Shown here: positions 12,763-18,693 of the stretch, piece after piece
Layout: every line of letters begins with the position of its first letter
Position numbering within the stretch: position 1 is the stretch's first letter
From: Kocuria palustris
GTDB lineage: Bacteria > Actinomycetota > Actinomycetes > Actinomycetales > Micrococcaceae
NCBI RefSeq assembly: GCF_007666205.1
Contig: NZ_VDOR01000001.1
Coordinates: 248,001 to 312,000 of the forward strand
Direction of reading: 5' to 3'
Length of the DNA: 64,000 nucleotides
The notes under the pieces: model-generated
Databases searched by the model: none
What the model saw: only the letters and a program-made list of their open reading frames with translations
What the model was told of the DNA's origin: nothing
Translations under genes and position numbers: made by a program

Positions 12763-13977
12763 ATGACCGACTCCACTCCCGCCCCCCTCGGCCGGGACGA
12801 CAGCGACCGACGAGTGCGCGGTCTGCGCGAGCGCCTGATGCGCGCCGGTCAGCTGCCCGAGGGAGCCGATCTGTCCCGCCCGGAGGCCTCCGACTTCGAC
12901 GCGACGCTCGAGCATGCGGTCAAGAGCTTCCAGCAGTCCCGCGGCCTGATCGCCGACGGCATCGTGGGTCCGGAGACCGAGCGCCGTCTCAGCGAGGCGC
13001 AGTACACGCTCGGGGACCGCCCCCTCCAGTGGGACCGCGGCGAGCCCATGCGCGGCGACGACGTCGAGCAGCTCCAGCAGAACCTCTCCCTCCTGGGGCT
13101 CTACTACGGCCATCTCAATGGCTCGTTCGAGGAGCGGACCCATCTGGCAGTCCTGGAGCTGCAGCAGAACCTGGGGCTCGAGCGGACGGGCCGAGTGGAT
13201 CACCGCACCATCGAGGCACTGGCCCGCATCAACAAGAACATCACCGACTCCAAGGCGTTCTCCCTCCGGGACTTCCACAATCTGGAGTCGGCCAACGGCG
13301 CCGTGCGCTCACGCAGCATCGTGCTGGTGCCCAAGACCATGCTCGAGGAGCATCCCCGCCCAGCTGAGGCCCCCCAGGATGCCGTGCAGCAGGCGCACGA
13401 GTGCTCCCTCGACGTCGCCGCCCGCGCCCACGAGCTCCTGAGCGACATCGGCGCGCACCCCACCGTCGTCGCGGACCGGCCCCTGAGCGCTGCGGACGGC
13501 ACCAGGATCGAGACGCCCAGGAGCCTCTCCGAGGCCCTCGAGGGCCTCGACCGCCCCGTGGTCATCGTGATCGGCTGCGAGTGGAACGCCTCCCAGCGCG
13601 CCAACGGCGTCGCCGCGTTCTACTGGGGCGATTCGGGCGACAAGCAGGAGACGCTGTCGCCGATCGGACGGCGAGGTGCCTCGCTCATCGTCCGCGAGAT
13701 GGTCGCGCGCACAGGTGCGCTGGACCTCGGCTGCCATGGACGGGAGTGGACCATCCTGCGCGGCACGCCTGCCGCCACGATCGCCCTGGACATCGGGTAC
13801 CTGTCGAACGCCGGGGAGGCCGCGGATCTGGCCCGAGGGGAGTACCGAGCGCACATCGCCCAGGCGATCGCGGTCGGGCTGCAGCGCATGTTCGCACGGG
13901 CGCCGCAGGACCACCCCACGGGGACGCTGAGCACGGACGAGATCGCCCGGGAGCTGCAGCGGAACGCTCGGGGCTGA
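12763..13977 (+). CDS. cwlM: CwlM-like protein: two peptidoglycan-binding domains plus degenerate amidase domain
   Basis: 404 residues from the ATG at 12763. Two peptidoglycan-binding-1 repeats are visible (about 30-85, with SFQQSRGLIADGIVGPETE; about 100-155, with LQQNLGLERTGRVD), then an Amidase_3-like domain to about residue 385. The zinc-binding His positions of real amidases are missing: the first site reads IVLVPKTM and the second IGCEWNAS. Mycobacterial CwlM is also degenerate and acts as a phosphorylation-dependent regulator of MurA and lipid II export. The genomic position (after trxA, before parB) is the same as Rv3915. A regulatory role is therefore more likely than cell-wall cleavage. 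Confidence 0.85.
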   Translation: MTDSTPAPLGRDDSDRRVRGLRERLMRAGQLPEGADLSRPEASDFDATLEHAVKSFQQSRGLIADGIVGPETERRLSEAQYTLGDRPLQWDRGEPMRGDDVEQLQQNLSLLGLYYGHLNGSFEERTHLAVLELQQNLGLERTGRVDHRTIEALARINKNITDSKAFSLRDFHNLESANGAVRSRSIVLVPKTMLEEHPRPAEAPQDAVQQAHECSLDVAARAHELLSDIGAHPTVVADRPLSAADGTRIETPRSLSEALEGLDRPVVIVIGCEWNASQRANGVAAFYWGDSGDKQETLSPIGRRGASLIVREMVARTGALDLGCHGREWTILRGTPAATIALDIGYLSNAGEAADLARGEYRAHIAQAIAVGLQRMFARAPQDHPTGTLSTDEIARELQRNARG

Positions 13978-13989
13978 GACGGCCCAGAC

Positions 13990-14035
13990 CGACAAGGAGC
14001 CGCATGTGATATGCATCACATGCGGCTCCTTGTCG
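13990..14035. terminator. Bidirectional terminator hairpin with a CRP/GlxR-like palindrome at its tip
   Basis: A perfect 21-bp stem (13990-14010 with 14015-14035) with a 4-base loop lies 12 bp after the cwlM stop and faces convergent parB. Its top half contains TGTGATATGCATCACA (14005-14020), which fits TGTGA-N6-TCACA. Termination is the simplest role. A regulator site is possible because a near-identical palindrome lies upstream of parA. Confidence 0.7.
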
Positions 14036-14166
14036 CTCTCCCGGATTTCCAGGAAAGCGCCCGCACCTGCTGCTCAGGCAGCAGGCGGCGTACGTCGCAC
14101 GACGGTGTCTCACCGGCCTGACGGTCCAGGGACCCGCATCGGACGCCGCGCCTCTCTCTCGATGGA

Positions 14167-14182
14167 TGTTCCACGTGAAACG
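14167..14182. other. parS site 1 (downstream of parB)
   Basis: TGTTCCACGTGAAACG: 15 of 16 bases fit the ParB-binding consensus TGTTNCACGTGAAACA. Its right part forms one arm of the hairpin at 14172-14219. Confidence 0.85.
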
Positions 14183-14219
14183 ACCCGAGGCCTCCACTGG
14201 ACTCGGGTCGTTTCACGTG
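14172..14219. terminator. parB terminator hairpin built from two parS copies
   Basis: A perfect 18-bp stem (14172-14189 with 14202-14219) and a 12-base loop lie 22 bp beyond the parB stop. Both arms start or end in CACGTGAAAC/GTTTCACGTG, i.e. parS core sequence, extended by CGACCCGAG and its complement. Confidence 0.75.
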
Positions 14220-14224
14220 ATGCT
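14209..14224. other. parS site 2 (half-degenerate)
   Basis: CGTTTCACGTGATGCT keeps the central TTTCACGTGA but has a degenerate right end. It is the second arm of the parB hairpin, so its sequence may be kept by base-pairing with site 1 as well as by ParB binding. Confidence 0.55.
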
Positions 14225-14240
14225 GATCAGCCAGCCCCGG

Positions 14241-15860
14241 TCATGACGACGCGCCCTCGCTACCCGACTGCGGATCCAGGACCGAGATGATCCGATTGAG
14301 ATCCTCCACGGACGCGAACTCGATGGTCATCCGCCCCTTCCGCGCACCCAGATTGATCTTGACGCTCGTGTCGAGCTTGTCGGAGAAGGCGTCGGCGATG
14401 TAGTCGAGGCGCTCCCGGTGTCGCTCCTGAGCCCTGGACGGGGTCCTGCGAGCCGGGCCTGTGCGCTTGGCCAGGGATGCGGTTTCCTCCGCGGCCCGCA
14501 CTGACAGGCCCTCCGCCACGATCCGCTGGGCGAGCCGCTCCATCTCCGCCGGATCCTCGAGGGAGAGCAGGGCACGTGCGTGACCGGCCGAGAGCAAGCC
14601 GGCCGCCACTCGGCGCTGTACGAGCGGTGGGAGACGCATCAGGCGCAGGGTGTTGCTGATCTGGGGCCGCGATCGGCCGATCCGCTGCGACAGCTCCTCC
14701 TGTGTCGCCCCGAACTCCTCCATGAGCTGCTGGTAGGCTGCGGCCTCTTCCAGCGGATTCAGCTGACTGCGGTGCAGGTTCTCCAGGAGCGCATCCCGCA
14801 GCAGATCGTCATCGGAGGTCTCGCGGACGATGGCGGGAACGGTGTCCAGCCCCGCTCGCTGCGTGGCACGCCAGCGCCGCTCACCCATGACGAGCTCGTA
14901 GGTGGGCCCACCCGTTTCACGTGACGGGCGGACCACGATCGGCTGGAGAACCCCGAGCTCGCCGATGGAGTAGGCGAGCTCCGCGAGCTCGTCCTCGTCG
15001 AAGACCTGGCGCGGCTGCTTCCGGTTCGGATGGATGTCGTCGACAGAGATCTCGGTGAACGTCGCCCCTGGAACAGCTGCCAGACCCGAGGACTCCGTCT
15101 CCGGCGTGTCCGCGCCCCCAGAAGCGCTGGACGACTCCGGCGTCACATCAGTCCCGGAGCCACCCGACGTTTCACGTGAAGCAATCCGAGATGCCGGCGG
15201 CTCGTCGGGTGCCTTCAGCTCCCCGGCTTCATCCGGGGAGTCCGCCGACTCGGGTGTTGCCGGCGTGGGCGTGAAGAACATGTCCGAGGGGCGAGCGGAG
15301 CCCCCACGTTGACGAAGAGCCTCGCCCATATCCAGTCGAGACCGCATAGCGCTCTGCCGTGCCTCAGGACTCACCACCCGTCGCTTTGCGCCTGTTCCAC
15401 GTGAAACATCCGCGGCTGCAATGCTCGTCGACGCGTCTTCGGCTGCGGGGGACTCTCCGGGCGAGCGCCGCCGCGCTGACAAGGTGGCGTCGCTTTCGGC
15501 CACCGAGGTGGATCCTGCATCAGCAGCCCGATCAGCATCGGTCGGCTCTGCGGCCGCTGCCCTCTTCCCGGTCGACGAGGATGCCTTCGAACCGGGGCTC
15601 TTCTCGATGGACTTCGACGTGCCACGCCCTCTGCCCGCCTTCTTCGCCGAAGAATCCGAGGTCTTCGATGAGCTGCTGGTGGGCTGGTCCTTCTTCTTTC
15701 GAGTCGAACTCCTCGTCACGTCAGATCCGGCATCGGTGGGTGCCGTGCTCTCCACGCCCTCCTCCGCCGTGCTCGAAGCCGGGACTGATTCCTCCTGCGC
15801 CGGGGCACTGGGAATCAGGGCTCCGAGCCCCCTGCCGAGGCCCCTCTTGCGCTCCGCCAT
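14241..15860 (-). CDS. parB: Chromosome-partitioning protein ParB with an unusually long linker
   Basis: 539 residues from the ATG at 15860 (GAGGAGTG upstream). The N-terminal ParA-stimulating motif [13 protein letters not shown] (about 4-16) is present. Residues about 18-266 are low-complexity (Ser, Ala, Glu, Lys) and probably disordered. The conserved part begins at about 267: CTP-binding N-domain with [13 protein letters not shown], a helix-turn-helix ([18 protein letters not shown]), and a C-terminal dimer domain. ParB clamps load at parS and recruit SMC. Typical ParB is about 300-380 residues, so the linker is the anomaly. Three parS sites lie inside the coding sequence. parA is 970 bp upstream rather than adjacent. 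Confidence 0.95.
14913..14928. other. parS site 3 (inside parB, half-degenerate)
   Basis: CGTTTCACGTGACGGG. The left half and core match the consensus; the right end does not. It falls in the conserved part of ParB and encodes the SRET stretch there. Confidence 0.5.
15168..15183. other. parS site 4 (inside the parB linker region)
   Basis: CGTTTCACGTGAAGCA has 14 of 16 consensus positions. It lies in the low-complexity linker of ParB, where protein constraint is weak. Confidence 0.75.
15393..15408. other. parS site 5 (perfect, inside the parB linker region)
   Basis: TGTTCCACGTGAAACA matches the 16-bp consensus at every position and lies within linker codons of parB. Confidence 0.9.
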
Positions 15861-15921
15861 GGACGACACTCCTCTTCTCGACGACCCGGACAGTCTACGG
15901 AGTCGACCCTCTACATTCCGG

Positions 15922-15937
15922 TGTTCCACGTGAAACA
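15922..15937. other. parS site 6 (perfect, just upstream of parB)
   Basis: TGTTCCACGTGAAACA, perfect 16-bp consensus, 62 bp upstream of the parB start. ParB bound here could affect its own transcription. Confidence 0.9.
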
Positions 15938-16096
15938 CGCGGTGATGCCCGTGAGTCACGGCCCCCGTGGTCGATTCCGGGGGGCCAGCTGACATCTGCC
16001 GACGCACTATGCGGGAAGTCAGCAGCGCTCCACAGGGTCGACCGGCTGTGCTGGAACCCGCGGGCGGCCCTCCGGAGTCTGCCTTCCCAATCGGGT

Positions 16097-16112
16097 TGTT
16101 TCACGTGAAACG
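16097..16112. other. parS site 7
   Basis: TGTTTCACGTGAAACG, 15 of 16 consensus bases, in the parA-parB spacer. Confidence 0.88.
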
Positions 16113-16460
16113 ACGCAGGTATCCCGCGAGACCGAACCCGATCCTGGAACAGGACCCGCGAAACCGGTGCACCTATTCGAGAGATCAGGGCCGTCGGAAA
16201 CCCGTGAACCAGGCCCATCGATGTTTCCCATGGATCATCTGGAGCGTGGGACGACGCCTGCGACACCGCATCGGTCCTCCGTCGCCCGCGCCTGCTGCCT
16301 GCACCGTCGTTCCTCTGCGACCCCTGAACCCGGCCTTGACTGCGGCGAACCACGCACCAGGACGACGTGCTCCCGTCCGGTGGAGCGCGGGATGTCATCT
16401 CAGCGACGGGCACAGGAGGTCACCCAGCAGGTGGTTCGCTGCCCGTTCCGCAGCGTCCGA

Positions 16461-16476
16461 CGTTTCACGTGAAACA
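16461..16476. other. parS site 8
   Basis: CGTTTCACGTGAAACA, 15 of 16 consensus bases, in the parA-parB spacer. Confidence 0.88.
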
Positions 16477-16768
16477 GCGTCGCGCGCCGACGCGACGACG
16501 ACCCCGACCGCCGCGCCCCGTCGGGAGGTCATCGTCGGGTCCTTACCTGCGACTGAAGCAAGGGGCACAGCCGCGGCCCGGGCCGCCGTCGCAGACGCAG
16601 GCGACCGACCTCGAGGCATGGTCATCGAGGGCGCCCGGTTCCGGGCGGCAGGCCCCGGGCCATCTCCGTCGCCATCAGACGACCTGTGCGCGACCCGCAC
16701 CGATCGTCGGTCCACAGACCCGGTGGTCGCAGCCCTTTCGTCTCCTCTGCCCGGGCCTTGATCAGCAC

Positions 16769-16800
16769 AACGGCCCCGTTTCACGTGAAACGGGGCCGTT
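16769..16800. terminator. 32-bp perfect palindrome with parS core, downstream of parA
   Basis: The two 16-base halves (16769-16784 and 16785-16800) are exact reverse complements. The centre is parS; the flanks are AACGGCCC and its complement. It starts 30 bp after the parA stop, where a terminator would be expected. As RNA it would form a stem limited only by the turn at its centre. Confidence 0.7.
16777..16792. other. parS site 9 (core of the parA terminator palindrome)
   Basis: CGTTTCACGTGAAACG, a perfect palindrome with 14 of 16 consensus bases, centred in the 32-bp palindrome downstream of parA. Confidence 0.85.
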
Positions 16801-16830
16801 CGCCAGCCATGGGTCATCGCGCGCGCATCG

Positions 16831-17859
16831 TCAGGAAGCGGTCGGCACACCTCGTGCGGCGATCTCTGCGGCCGCCTCGAGGTAGGAGAGCGCGCCGGTG
16901 GACTGCGGATCGTAGGTGATCACCGACTGCTGATAGCTCGGCGCTTCCGAGATGCGCACCGAGCGAGGGATCATCGTCTCCAGGACCTTGTCGGGGAAGT
17001 GCTGCCGCACCTCGTCCGCGACCTGCGAGGACAGGTTCGTGCGGCCGTCGTACATGGTCATCAGGATCGTCGAGACGTGGAGATCCGGGTTCAGGTGCTT
17101 CTGGATCATCCCGATGTTGTTGAGCAGCTGGCTCAGGCCCTCGAGGGCGTAGTACTCGCACTGGATGGGGATGAGCACCTCCGTCGCCGCGACGAAGGCA
17201 TTGATCGTCAGCAGCCCGAGGCTCGGGGGGCAGTCGATGAAGACGTAGTCCAGTCGCTCCAGACCCGCAGCCTCACGAGCCTTGGCGTACTGGGCGATCG
17301 CACGCGACAGTCGCTGCTCGCGGGCCACCATGGAGACCAGCTCGATCTCCGCGCCGGCGAGGTCGATGGTGGCCGGCGCGACCACGATGCGCTCGGACTC
17401 CGGAGACGGTGCGACGACCTGCTCGAGCTCCATCTCATCCACGAGGACGTCGTAGACGCCATCCACCTCGGAGCCGTGCGGCACACCCAGGGCGGTCGAG
17501 GCGTTGCCCTGCGGGTCGTTGTCGACCACCAGGACATGGAGGCCCTGCTCGGCCAGGGCGACAGCGAGGTTCACAGCGGTGCTGGTCTTGCCCACTCCGC
17601 CCTTCTGGTTGCTCACCGTGACGATGCGGGTCTGCTCGGGCCGCTCGAGCTGCACGCGCTGGAGTCGCCGCCGTCGCTGGTTCTCTTCCACGAGCTTCCT
17701 TCCGAGCGGGGTGTCTCCCGCACCTTGTGCCGCCGGAGCGCCGGCGTCCTGACCTGCCGTCATCCGCGATCCGCGATCGGGCTGCACGGCCGTGGGCTGA
17801 GCGACCGGATCCGGGGGGAGTCCGAAGTCGTAGCCCCGGGACGACGTGTTCTGCGGCAT
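16831..17859 (-). CDS. parA: Chromosome-partitioning ATPase ParA
   Basis: 342 residues from the ATG at 17859, preceded by AGGAGGGTGG. ParA/Soj proteins are deviant-Walker ATPases that bind DNA non-specifically as dimers and move ParB-parS complexes. Visible: NQKGGVGKTSTAVNLAVALA (about 84-103, signature Lys of the deviant P-loop), VVDNDPQGNAST (switch I), FIDCPPSLGLLTINA (Walker B), and a DNA-binding C-terminal Arg/Lys segment. The first 80 residues are an extension without known domain, common in actinobacteria. The upstream gap holds a GlxR/CRP-like palindrome; downstream lies a parS-centred terminator. Confidence 0.97.
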   Translation of the reverse strand: MPQNTSSRGYDFGLPPDPVAQPTAVQPDRGSRMTAGQDAGAPAAQGAGDTPLGRKLVEENQRRRRLQRVQLERPEQTRIVTVSNQKGGVGKTSTAVNLAVALAEQGLHVLVVDNDPQGNASTALGVPHGSEVDGVYDVLVDEMELEQVVAPSPESERIVVAPATIDLAGAEIELVSMVAREQRLSRAIAQYAKAREAAGLERLDYVFIDCPPSLGLLTINAFVAATEVLIPIQCEYYALEGLSQLLNNIGMIQKHLNPDLHVSTILMTMYDGRTNLSSQVADEVRQHFPDKVLETMIPRSVRISEAPSYQQSVITYDPQSTGALSYLEAAAEIAARGVPTAS

Positions 17860-17881
17860 CGAGCCACCCTCCTGGACCTGA

Positions 17882-17897
17882 TGTGATGTACATCACA
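17882..17897. promoter_or_regulatory. CRP/GlxR-like palindrome upstream of parA
   Basis: TGTGATGTACATCACA is a perfect palindrome that fits the GlxR consensus TGTGA-NNTANN-TCACA. It lies 23 bp upstream of the parA start and downstream of a possible -10 (TAGTGT on the minus strand, 17938-17933), a position that would favour repression. No regulator gene of this family is in the window. Confidence 0.55.
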
Positions 17898-17979
17898 CCG
17901 CAAGAGGCCGTGGCCTCCGGCGGACCAGGCCAACACTACCCAAGGGGGCTCCCGCGCCGCCCAGCCGGAGCCGTACGGG

Positions 17980-18693
17980 TCAGAGCGCCACGCGGACCAC
18001 GGTCGTGGGCTCCTCGAGCAGCTCCTGCCCGAGGGAGAGGACCTCCGTCCGCGAGACTCGATGGCGCTTGAGCTGCTTGCGGGCCTTCTCGACCTCGGCC
18101 TCCGCCGAGCGGCCCTTGAGCGCCAGCAGCTCCCCGGACCCGTGCAGCAGCGGGAGGGTGAAATCCAGCAGCCCGCTGAGCGCCGAGACGGCGCGTGCCG
18201 TGACCACCTGCGGGGCCTCCCCTCCGGGCAGCTCCTCGACCTGTTCGCCTCGGGCGCGGAGGACCTGGACGTTGTCGAGCTGCAGGTCCTCGATGACCTC
18301 GTTCAGCCACGTGACGCGCCGCTCGAGCGGCTCGATCAGCGTCAGCCGCAGATCGGGGCGGGCGATGGCCAGGCAGAGCCCGGGCAGTCCCGCACCCGAA
18401 CCCACATCCGCCACCCGGGCGTCCTGGGGGATCAGGGATTCCACCACCGCGCAGTTGAGCACGTGGCGCCCCCACAGCCGCGGGGCCTCCCTCGGACCGA
18501 TCAGACCGCGCACGATGCCCGACGACGCCAGGTGCCCCACATACCGCTGGGCCAGGGGCAGCCGGTCGCCGAAGAGCGTGCGCGCGGCCCGGGCCTCCTG
18601 GCCCTCGAGCTCGGGGGCCGGCTGCGCGACCGCTCCGCCGGCCCCGTCCTCCGCCGCACCGCCGGGAGCGCGATCAGGCGTCTGCTCAGCCAC
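17980..18693 (-). CDS. rsmG: 16S rRNA (guanine-527-N7)-methyltransferase
   Basis: 237 residues from a GTG at 18693, only 3 bp after the jag stop. RsmG (GidB) uses SAM to methylate G527 of 16S rRNA; loss gives low-level streptomycin resistance. The SAM motif is VADVGSGAGLPGLCLAIARP (about 95-114) followed by LIEPLERRVTWLNEV. The N-terminal RYVGHLASSG and WGRHVLNCA segments are typical of the family. The first 40 residues (Ala/Glu/Pro) are an unconserved extension. Same gene order as Rv3919c. Confidence 0.95.
   Translation of the reverse strand: MAEQTPDRAPGGAAEDGAGGAVAQPAPELEGQEARAARTLFGDRLPLAQRYVGHLASSGIVRGLIGPREAPRLWGRHVLNCAVVESLIPQDARVADVGSGAGLPGLCLAIARPDLRLTLIEPLERRVTWLNEVIEDLQLDNVQVLRARGEQVEELPGGEAPQVVTARAVSALSGLLDFTLPLLHGSGELLALKGRSAEAEVEKARKQLKRHRVSRTEVLSLGQELLEEPTTVVRVAL

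Follow-up and report, generated by a model that had tools for sequence, protein, structure and literature searches.

The parAB locus of Kocuria palustris raises the question of why a centromere site for ParB (parS) should form the centre of a long perfect palindrome lying directly behind parA, and of whether the same arrangement is found at other gene ends. The window referred to below is the whole stretch of DNA that was analysed, 64,000 nucleotides (64 kb) in length. It contains the following features at this locus:

16831..17859, minus strand: parA (NCBIfam match)
16769..16800, minus strand: 32-bp perfect palindrome and putative transcript-end hairpin with a parS tip (sequence, RNA fold, comparison with relatives)
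16778..16791, no strand: exact parS core GTTTCACGTGAAAC at the hairpin tip, the central 14 bp of the palindrome (match to the consensus)
16462..16475, no strand: exact parS in the parA-parB gap, without palindromic arms (internal control; fold z -0.65)
16098..16111, no strand: exact parS in the parA-parB gap, without palindromic arms (internal control; fold z +0.37)
15923..15936, no strand: parS copy with 1 mismatch, directly upstream of parB (motif match)
15394..15407, no strand: parS copy with 1 mismatch, inside parB (motif match)
15169..15182, no strand: parS-like copy with 1 mismatch, inside parB (sequence)
14241..15860, minus strand: parB (NCBIfam match)
14208..14221, no strand: partial parS copy GTTTCACGTGA, second arm of the parB-end hairpin (sequence)
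14171..14220, minus strand: parB-end hairpin, its stem formed by two parS copies in inverted orientation, the first with 1 mismatch and the second partial (fold z -6.79)
14168..14181, no strand: parS copy GTTCCACGTGAAAC with 1 mismatch, forming the first arm of the parB-end hairpin (motif match)

The palindrome and the parS copies of the window

The palindrome, AACGGCCCCGTTTCACGTGAAACGGGGCCGTT (16769-16800), is identical to its own reverse complement and is flanked by two unpaired bases, C and C. It is the longest loop-free perfect palindrome of the 64-kb window and the sole one of at least 32 bp, the longest palindromes in 20 mononucleotide shuffles of the window measuring 16-26 bp. Its core (16778-16791) is an exact copy of GTTTCACGTGAAAC, which we take to be the parS 14-bp consensus, and a preliminary description of this DNA, which had reported a perfect 32-bp palindrome with a parS core behind parA, is thus confirmed. 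The parA stop codon lies 30 nt ahead of it. The RNA of positions 16755-16815 is predicted to fold with -35.4 kcal/mol, versus -20.0 kcal/mol (sd 3.2) for shuffled sequences (z -4.87); the two arm-less exact parS copies of the parA-parB gap fold no better than shuffles. The stem is not followed by a U-tract (the tail is GTGCTGATCAAGG), so the window copy is called terminator-like rather than a canonical intrinsic terminator; a scan of 13800-18000 for terminators with a T-tail returned 0, with a mean of 1.0 in shuffles, and the term terminator is therefore applied here on the strength of the comparison with relatives. A promoter scan found none at the locus. In Rfam, at E up to 1, the palindrome and the parB-end hairpin have no match; the two matches obtained, both to miRNA families and far below gathering scores, both fall on the neighbouring hairpin at 13986-14039.

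The loose parS pattern TTNCACGTGNAA has 6 matches genome-wide, all of them at 14169-16790 of the window, a stretch that takes in the end of parB, its coding sequence and the gap up to parA, and this clustering at parAB is that of parS sites. The hairpin that had also been claimed behind parB is present at 14171-14220, with arms that consist of a one-mismatch parS copy and an inverted, partial one. Within the parB coding sequence, parS-like or partial copies lie at 14914-14927, 15169-15182 and 15394-15407, where the protein reads SRET, SRET and SRGT, respectively.

Another type of site was observed around parAB. The neighbouring hairpin (13990-14035; z -10.1), located behind a convergent amidase-like gene, carries at its tip TGTGATATGCATCACA, a CRP-type site, and a further site of this type lies upstream of parA (17882-17897). 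Exact TGTGA-N6-TCACA sites number 3 in the genome, 2 of which flank parAB. Among the 81 loci compared below, a comparable long hairpin with a CRP-type tip is found only in L129, the nearest relative of the window.

Hairpins at the ends of parA and parB in the Micrococcaceae

The parA-parB regions of 80 relatives were compared, 25 from the genus and 55 from other Micrococcaceae, i.e. 81 loci with the window. The 55 were taken in handle order (G027-G064, G066-G082) from the 140 further genomes of the family in which ParA was matched, 85 being left out, as were G015 and G129, which have no ParA match. The parB end could be scored in 79 of the 81 loci (not in L191 and L193), and gap measurements are missing for 6 of the 81. 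Each parS 14-mer, with at most 1 mismatch, was scored by the complementarity of the nine base pairs flanking it; the arm counts by position (68, 34 and 410 sites) used parB stops of L147 and L174 that were later revised, and gene context comes from a crude ORF caller. Over the stretches compared, the locus L189 has the same sequence as the Arthrobacter mobilis locus L002, which identifies the family as Micrococcaceae, and a scan of named ParA genomes contained no close relative of the window. As the compared species are related, the p-values given below overstate independence and are too small.

Behind parA, 13 of the 26 genus genomes (window included) have a hairpin with a parS tip, 11 have a plain hairpin and 2 have neither; a parS tip is found behind parA in 0 of the 55 other family members. 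Among 34 parS copies situated within 160 nt behind parA, 13 have at least 7 of 9 complementary pairs and 21 are without long arms. In 9 of the 22 genus genomes with a parS within this distance, the copies are exclusively arm-less (L129, L143, L144, L146-L148, L151-L153), and all nine possess a separate, parS-free hairpin behind parA. In the window's own clade in the tree (seven genomes), five of the six other members have a parS-tipped hairpin behind parA with different arms; the earlier description would have been refuted had such palindrome flanks been missing from close relatives with parS. In the closest relative, L129, the tip behind parA reads GTTCCTCGTGGAAC, with three parS letters changed and the hairpin pairing kept. 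The distance between parA and parB in the genus is about 170-1500 nt, and none of the 27 loci whose gap to the ParB start motif is below 170 nt has a strong parA hairpin, versus 36 of 48 loci with a gap of at least 170 nt (13 of these 36 being parS-tipped), a dependence that is in part due to lack of room. No strong hairpin stands behind parA in L142, where units resembling GCTGTAGG are repeated in tandem.

Behind parB, the 81 loci comprise 40 exact parS tips, 7 decayed tips (1-2 mismatches), 11 hairpins that overlap or abut parS, the window's among them, 14 hairpins without parS, 7 weak or absent hairpins and 2 loci without data. Among 68 parS copies within 160 nt behind the parB stop codon, 41 have 8 or 9 of the 9 flanking pairs complementary. 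At five parB ends (L130, L131, L135, L138 and L164), the GTTT of parS comes after the 3' arm of an ordinary hairpin or forms the end of that arm, in the place of a U-tract; as four of these loci belong to one clade, this may represent one event. In L161, L188 and L208, the hairpin behind parB is kept and the parS is decayed. In 12 of the 26 genus genomes, window included, the hairpins behind parA and parB alike contain parS or are in contact with it; of the earlier proposal that both genes end in parS-derived terminators, the hairpins are therefore retained, and termination itself is suggested by the comparison. A quick ParA tree, which is approximate, with long branches and open forks, gives at least 10 changes of the parB parS tip among 72 scored loci (3 of them forced by well-supported branches) and 3 changes of the parA tip among 24 genus genomes.

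Arms, gene context and wider occurrence

The arms vary by species with complementarity kept: G020, for example, has AAGGCTCCC where the window has AACGGCCCC, beside an identical core. Because the 50 hairpins aligned were picked for complementarity, their covariation count is partly a matter of construction, and only the three outer pairs, which lie outside the selection, are independent; these form standard pairs in 37, 39 and 45 of the 50 rows, versus 6/16 expected of random bases. Elsewhere in the loci, i.e. not behind parA or parB, this complementarity reaches 8 or 9 pairs in 7 of 410 parS copies. In 48 of 59 cases a long-armed copy follows the 3' end of a gene by no more than 120 nt, versus 45 of 431 for copies with 5 pairs or fewer (Fisher p 7e-30, a test that leaves out 21 sites with 6-7 pairs, 5 of which are behind a 3' end). 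Of the same 59 family sites, 2 are inside genes and 1 is in a divergent gap; of the sites with 5 pairs or fewer, 181/431 are inside genes. A stable hairpin situated behind genes, and rarely in gene bodies or divergent gaps, is the placement of an intrinsic terminator.

The parA hairpins are furthermore asymmetric between strands. In 13 of them, there are 67 T on the 3' side versus 24 mirrored A on the 5' side (p 1e-4), and where Watson-Crick pairing is broken, within the arms or at their ends, G.U occurs 12 times and C.A once (p 0.0017); in-arm wobbles pooled over 54 parA and parB hairpins, with 6 G.U, 4 C.A and 5 others, do not settle the matter. Runs of at least four T are present behind 15 of the 54 long-armed sites of the window and its relatives, and mirrored A-runs at 8 of 54; the same test on the other sites gave T-runs at 3 of 410 and A-runs at 9 of 410. 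Some of the hairpins, in L133, L136 and L138, look like textbook terminators.

With an E-value cut-off of 0.001, a covariance model built from the 50 hairpins matches at least 39 of 296 genomes of the phylum, among them that of the window, and these belong to 25 of 199 genera; with at most 22 candidates scored per genome and strict filters, this count is a lower bound. G034, the only other family member in this draw of 296 genomes, has no match to the model. The exact parS 14-mer itself is present in 194 of the 296. In the loci of the best covariance matches, window excluded, 20 of 31 long-armed sites are within 120 nt behind a 3' end, versus 4 of 28 sites with 5 pairs or fewer (p 1.5e-4). The genes preceding ten such hairpins include those for ParB (two genomes of one genus, in another family), citrate synthase, thioredoxin, KhpB and RsmG, and one gene product without a Pfam match; the hairpin behind the citrate synthase gene in L215, with its long T-run, is a textbook case. 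In 80 named ParA loci, mostly from other families, 8 or more of the 9 pairs are complementary in 9 of 174 parS copies, one each in Microbacterium, Leucobacter, Bifidobacterium, a Cellulomonadaceae bacterium, Alkalihalobacillus, Acetobacterium and a Halanaerobiaceae bacterium, and two in Actinomadura; only 1 of the 13 copies behind parB is so well paired. Outside the Micrococcaceae, the nesting is thus real, sparse and not tied to parB.

Two other arrangements of parS were observed in the phylum. In L211, L212 and L214, which are large-genome members, two parS-tipped hairpins lie 43-84 bp apart between convergent genes. Two genomes of family f26, G308 and G437, contain 114 and 110 exact parS 14-mers, respectively, many with symmetric flanks, and one ParB match each, and the 7 other f26 genomes in the draw contain 3-14. 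For G308, 43 sites that differ from the search pattern by no more than one base are listed, and 1 of them is located beyond 2.34 Mb. Noc sites are dispersed, and the pattern of G308 and G437 resembles them.

Possible functions of the nested parS

Judging from the sequence and its comparison, the palindrome is probably a dual-use element, i.e. a transcript-end hairpin with a nested parS that serves, as DNA, for the loading of ParB. As DNA, it would be one of the ParB loading sites of the parAB cluster; as RNA, it would form a hairpin ending the parA transcript, in which parS makes up the upper stem and an ACGU loop, and the species-specific, GC-rich arms make up the lower stem. RNA polymerase leaving parA would transcribe the palindrome, the RNA would fold, and the transcript would end or be protected there. 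The hairpin would separate parA from parB, with the same nesting behind parB and other genes. We infer that RNA polymerase stops at the palindrome and that ParB binds the window copy. The two uses would occur together since each requires an inverted repeat outside coding sequence, and not because ParB regulates termination. This reading draws on the complementary arms, their strand asymmetry at parA, the T-runs, the concentration of long arms at gene 3' ends, the relation of parA hairpins to gap length and the hairpins kept where parS has decayed. Speaking against it are the missing U-tract and the negative T-tail scan of the window, the pooled wobble count, the arm-less parS copies behind parA, the lack of a parS tip there in half of the genus and in the 55 other family members, and the scarcity of long arms behind parB in the named ParA loci.

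Several other explanations were considered. The hairpin could be no terminator by itself and could instead cap or stabilise mRNA 3' ends resulting from Rho or nuclease trimming, with parS at its tip. The window copy, devoid of a U-tract and negative in the T-tail scan, would fit such a role, as would the 39 of 54 long-armed hairpins without a run of at least four T, but the remaining 15 do have such runs, some hairpins are textbook-like (L133, L136, L138; L215) and plain hairpins replace the parS-tipped ones in other genomes, so that we regard it as unlikely. A control of termination by ParB, in which the protein bound at the nested parS pauses RNA polymerase, aids the hairpin and thereby exerts feedback on transcription that continues past parA into parB, is quite unlikely as well: parS does sit where RNA polymerase must pause, its GTTT occupies the hairpin tail position at five parB ends and the parA hairpin is positioned between parA and parB, but hairpins persist without parS, the same nesting exists behind unrelated genes and ParB of B. 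subtilis was no block to E. coli RNA polymerase in vitro, although long pauses increased (PMC10681803). It is likewise doubtful that the parS-tipped hairpins constitute a ParB-sensing switch, in which ParB loaded at the nested parS would set the amount of transcription from parA into parB and past parB, the occupancy of the partition complex thus controlling the supply of its own proteins; ParB altering termination is possible but unsupported.

An exclusively DNA-level function, with arms that enlarge the site recognised by ParB or favour cruciform formation, would agree with the element being a perfect DNA palindrome. It is nevertheless very improbable, as the arm sequences are not conserved and the arms are strand-asymmetric at parA; an extended ParB site as the main reading was rejected because most parS copies in the same loci are arm-less and long arms concentrate at gene 3' ends. 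Many parS copies are present in the region, which would give room for a chance extension of one of them into a longer palindrome, but the arm complementarity, the 3'-end context, the per-locus counts and the shuffles all oppose it, leaving it hardly any probability; the earlier argument against chance is borne out by the shuffles and by the comparison with relatives.

The probable dual-use element shares traits with three known types of sequence. It resembles chromosomal ParABS parS sites in sequence, in its clustering at parAB and in the usual ParA and ParB families; such sites are known as ParB loading sites, whereas here parS would also be the tip of a transcript-end hairpin. With intrinsic terminators it shares a GC-rich hairpin located a few tens of nucleotides past a stop codon and, in some relatives, a T-tail, but it differs by its constant 14-bp tip, a site for protein binding, and, in the window copy, by the lack of a U-tract. 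The DNA uptake sequences (DUS/USS) that occur in terminators of Neisseria and Pasteurellaceae, Haemophilus among them (PMC1852404, PMC2397512), are the closest parallel to parS nesting. In both cases a short DNA signal of another system would be co-opted into transcript-end hairpins, and at the parB end of the window (14171-14220) two inverted signal copies make up the stem arms, as they do in uptake-sequence terminators. However, the signal is here the centromere site of the ParB system and, in most cases, forms the tip as one palindromic copy, and 6 parS copies stand against hundreds or more serving uptake; with 6 copies only, the element is not classified as a composite terminator of the uptake-signal type.

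No parS inside a terminator was found in the open literature, among the matches listed, and none is described in the available parts of PMC12779278, PMC4949633, PMC10954446 and PMC7414963. For C. glutamicum, 9 of 10 parS are intergenic, and the word terminator is absent from the text (PMC7083940). The preliminary statement that no such system has been described can be kept to that extent, with the qualification that uptake-sequence terminators are a close parallel (PMC1852404).

If the dual use is true, one and the same sequence is the centromere site of a bacterium and a signal for transcript ends, in roughly half of the Micrococcaceae sampled and, in scattered fashion, across the phylum. This would tell where many intergenic parS copies sit, and would offer a concrete place to test the mutual effects of transcription and ParB loading. 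Terminator prediction and parS prediction in actinobacteria could, in turn, each make use of the other.
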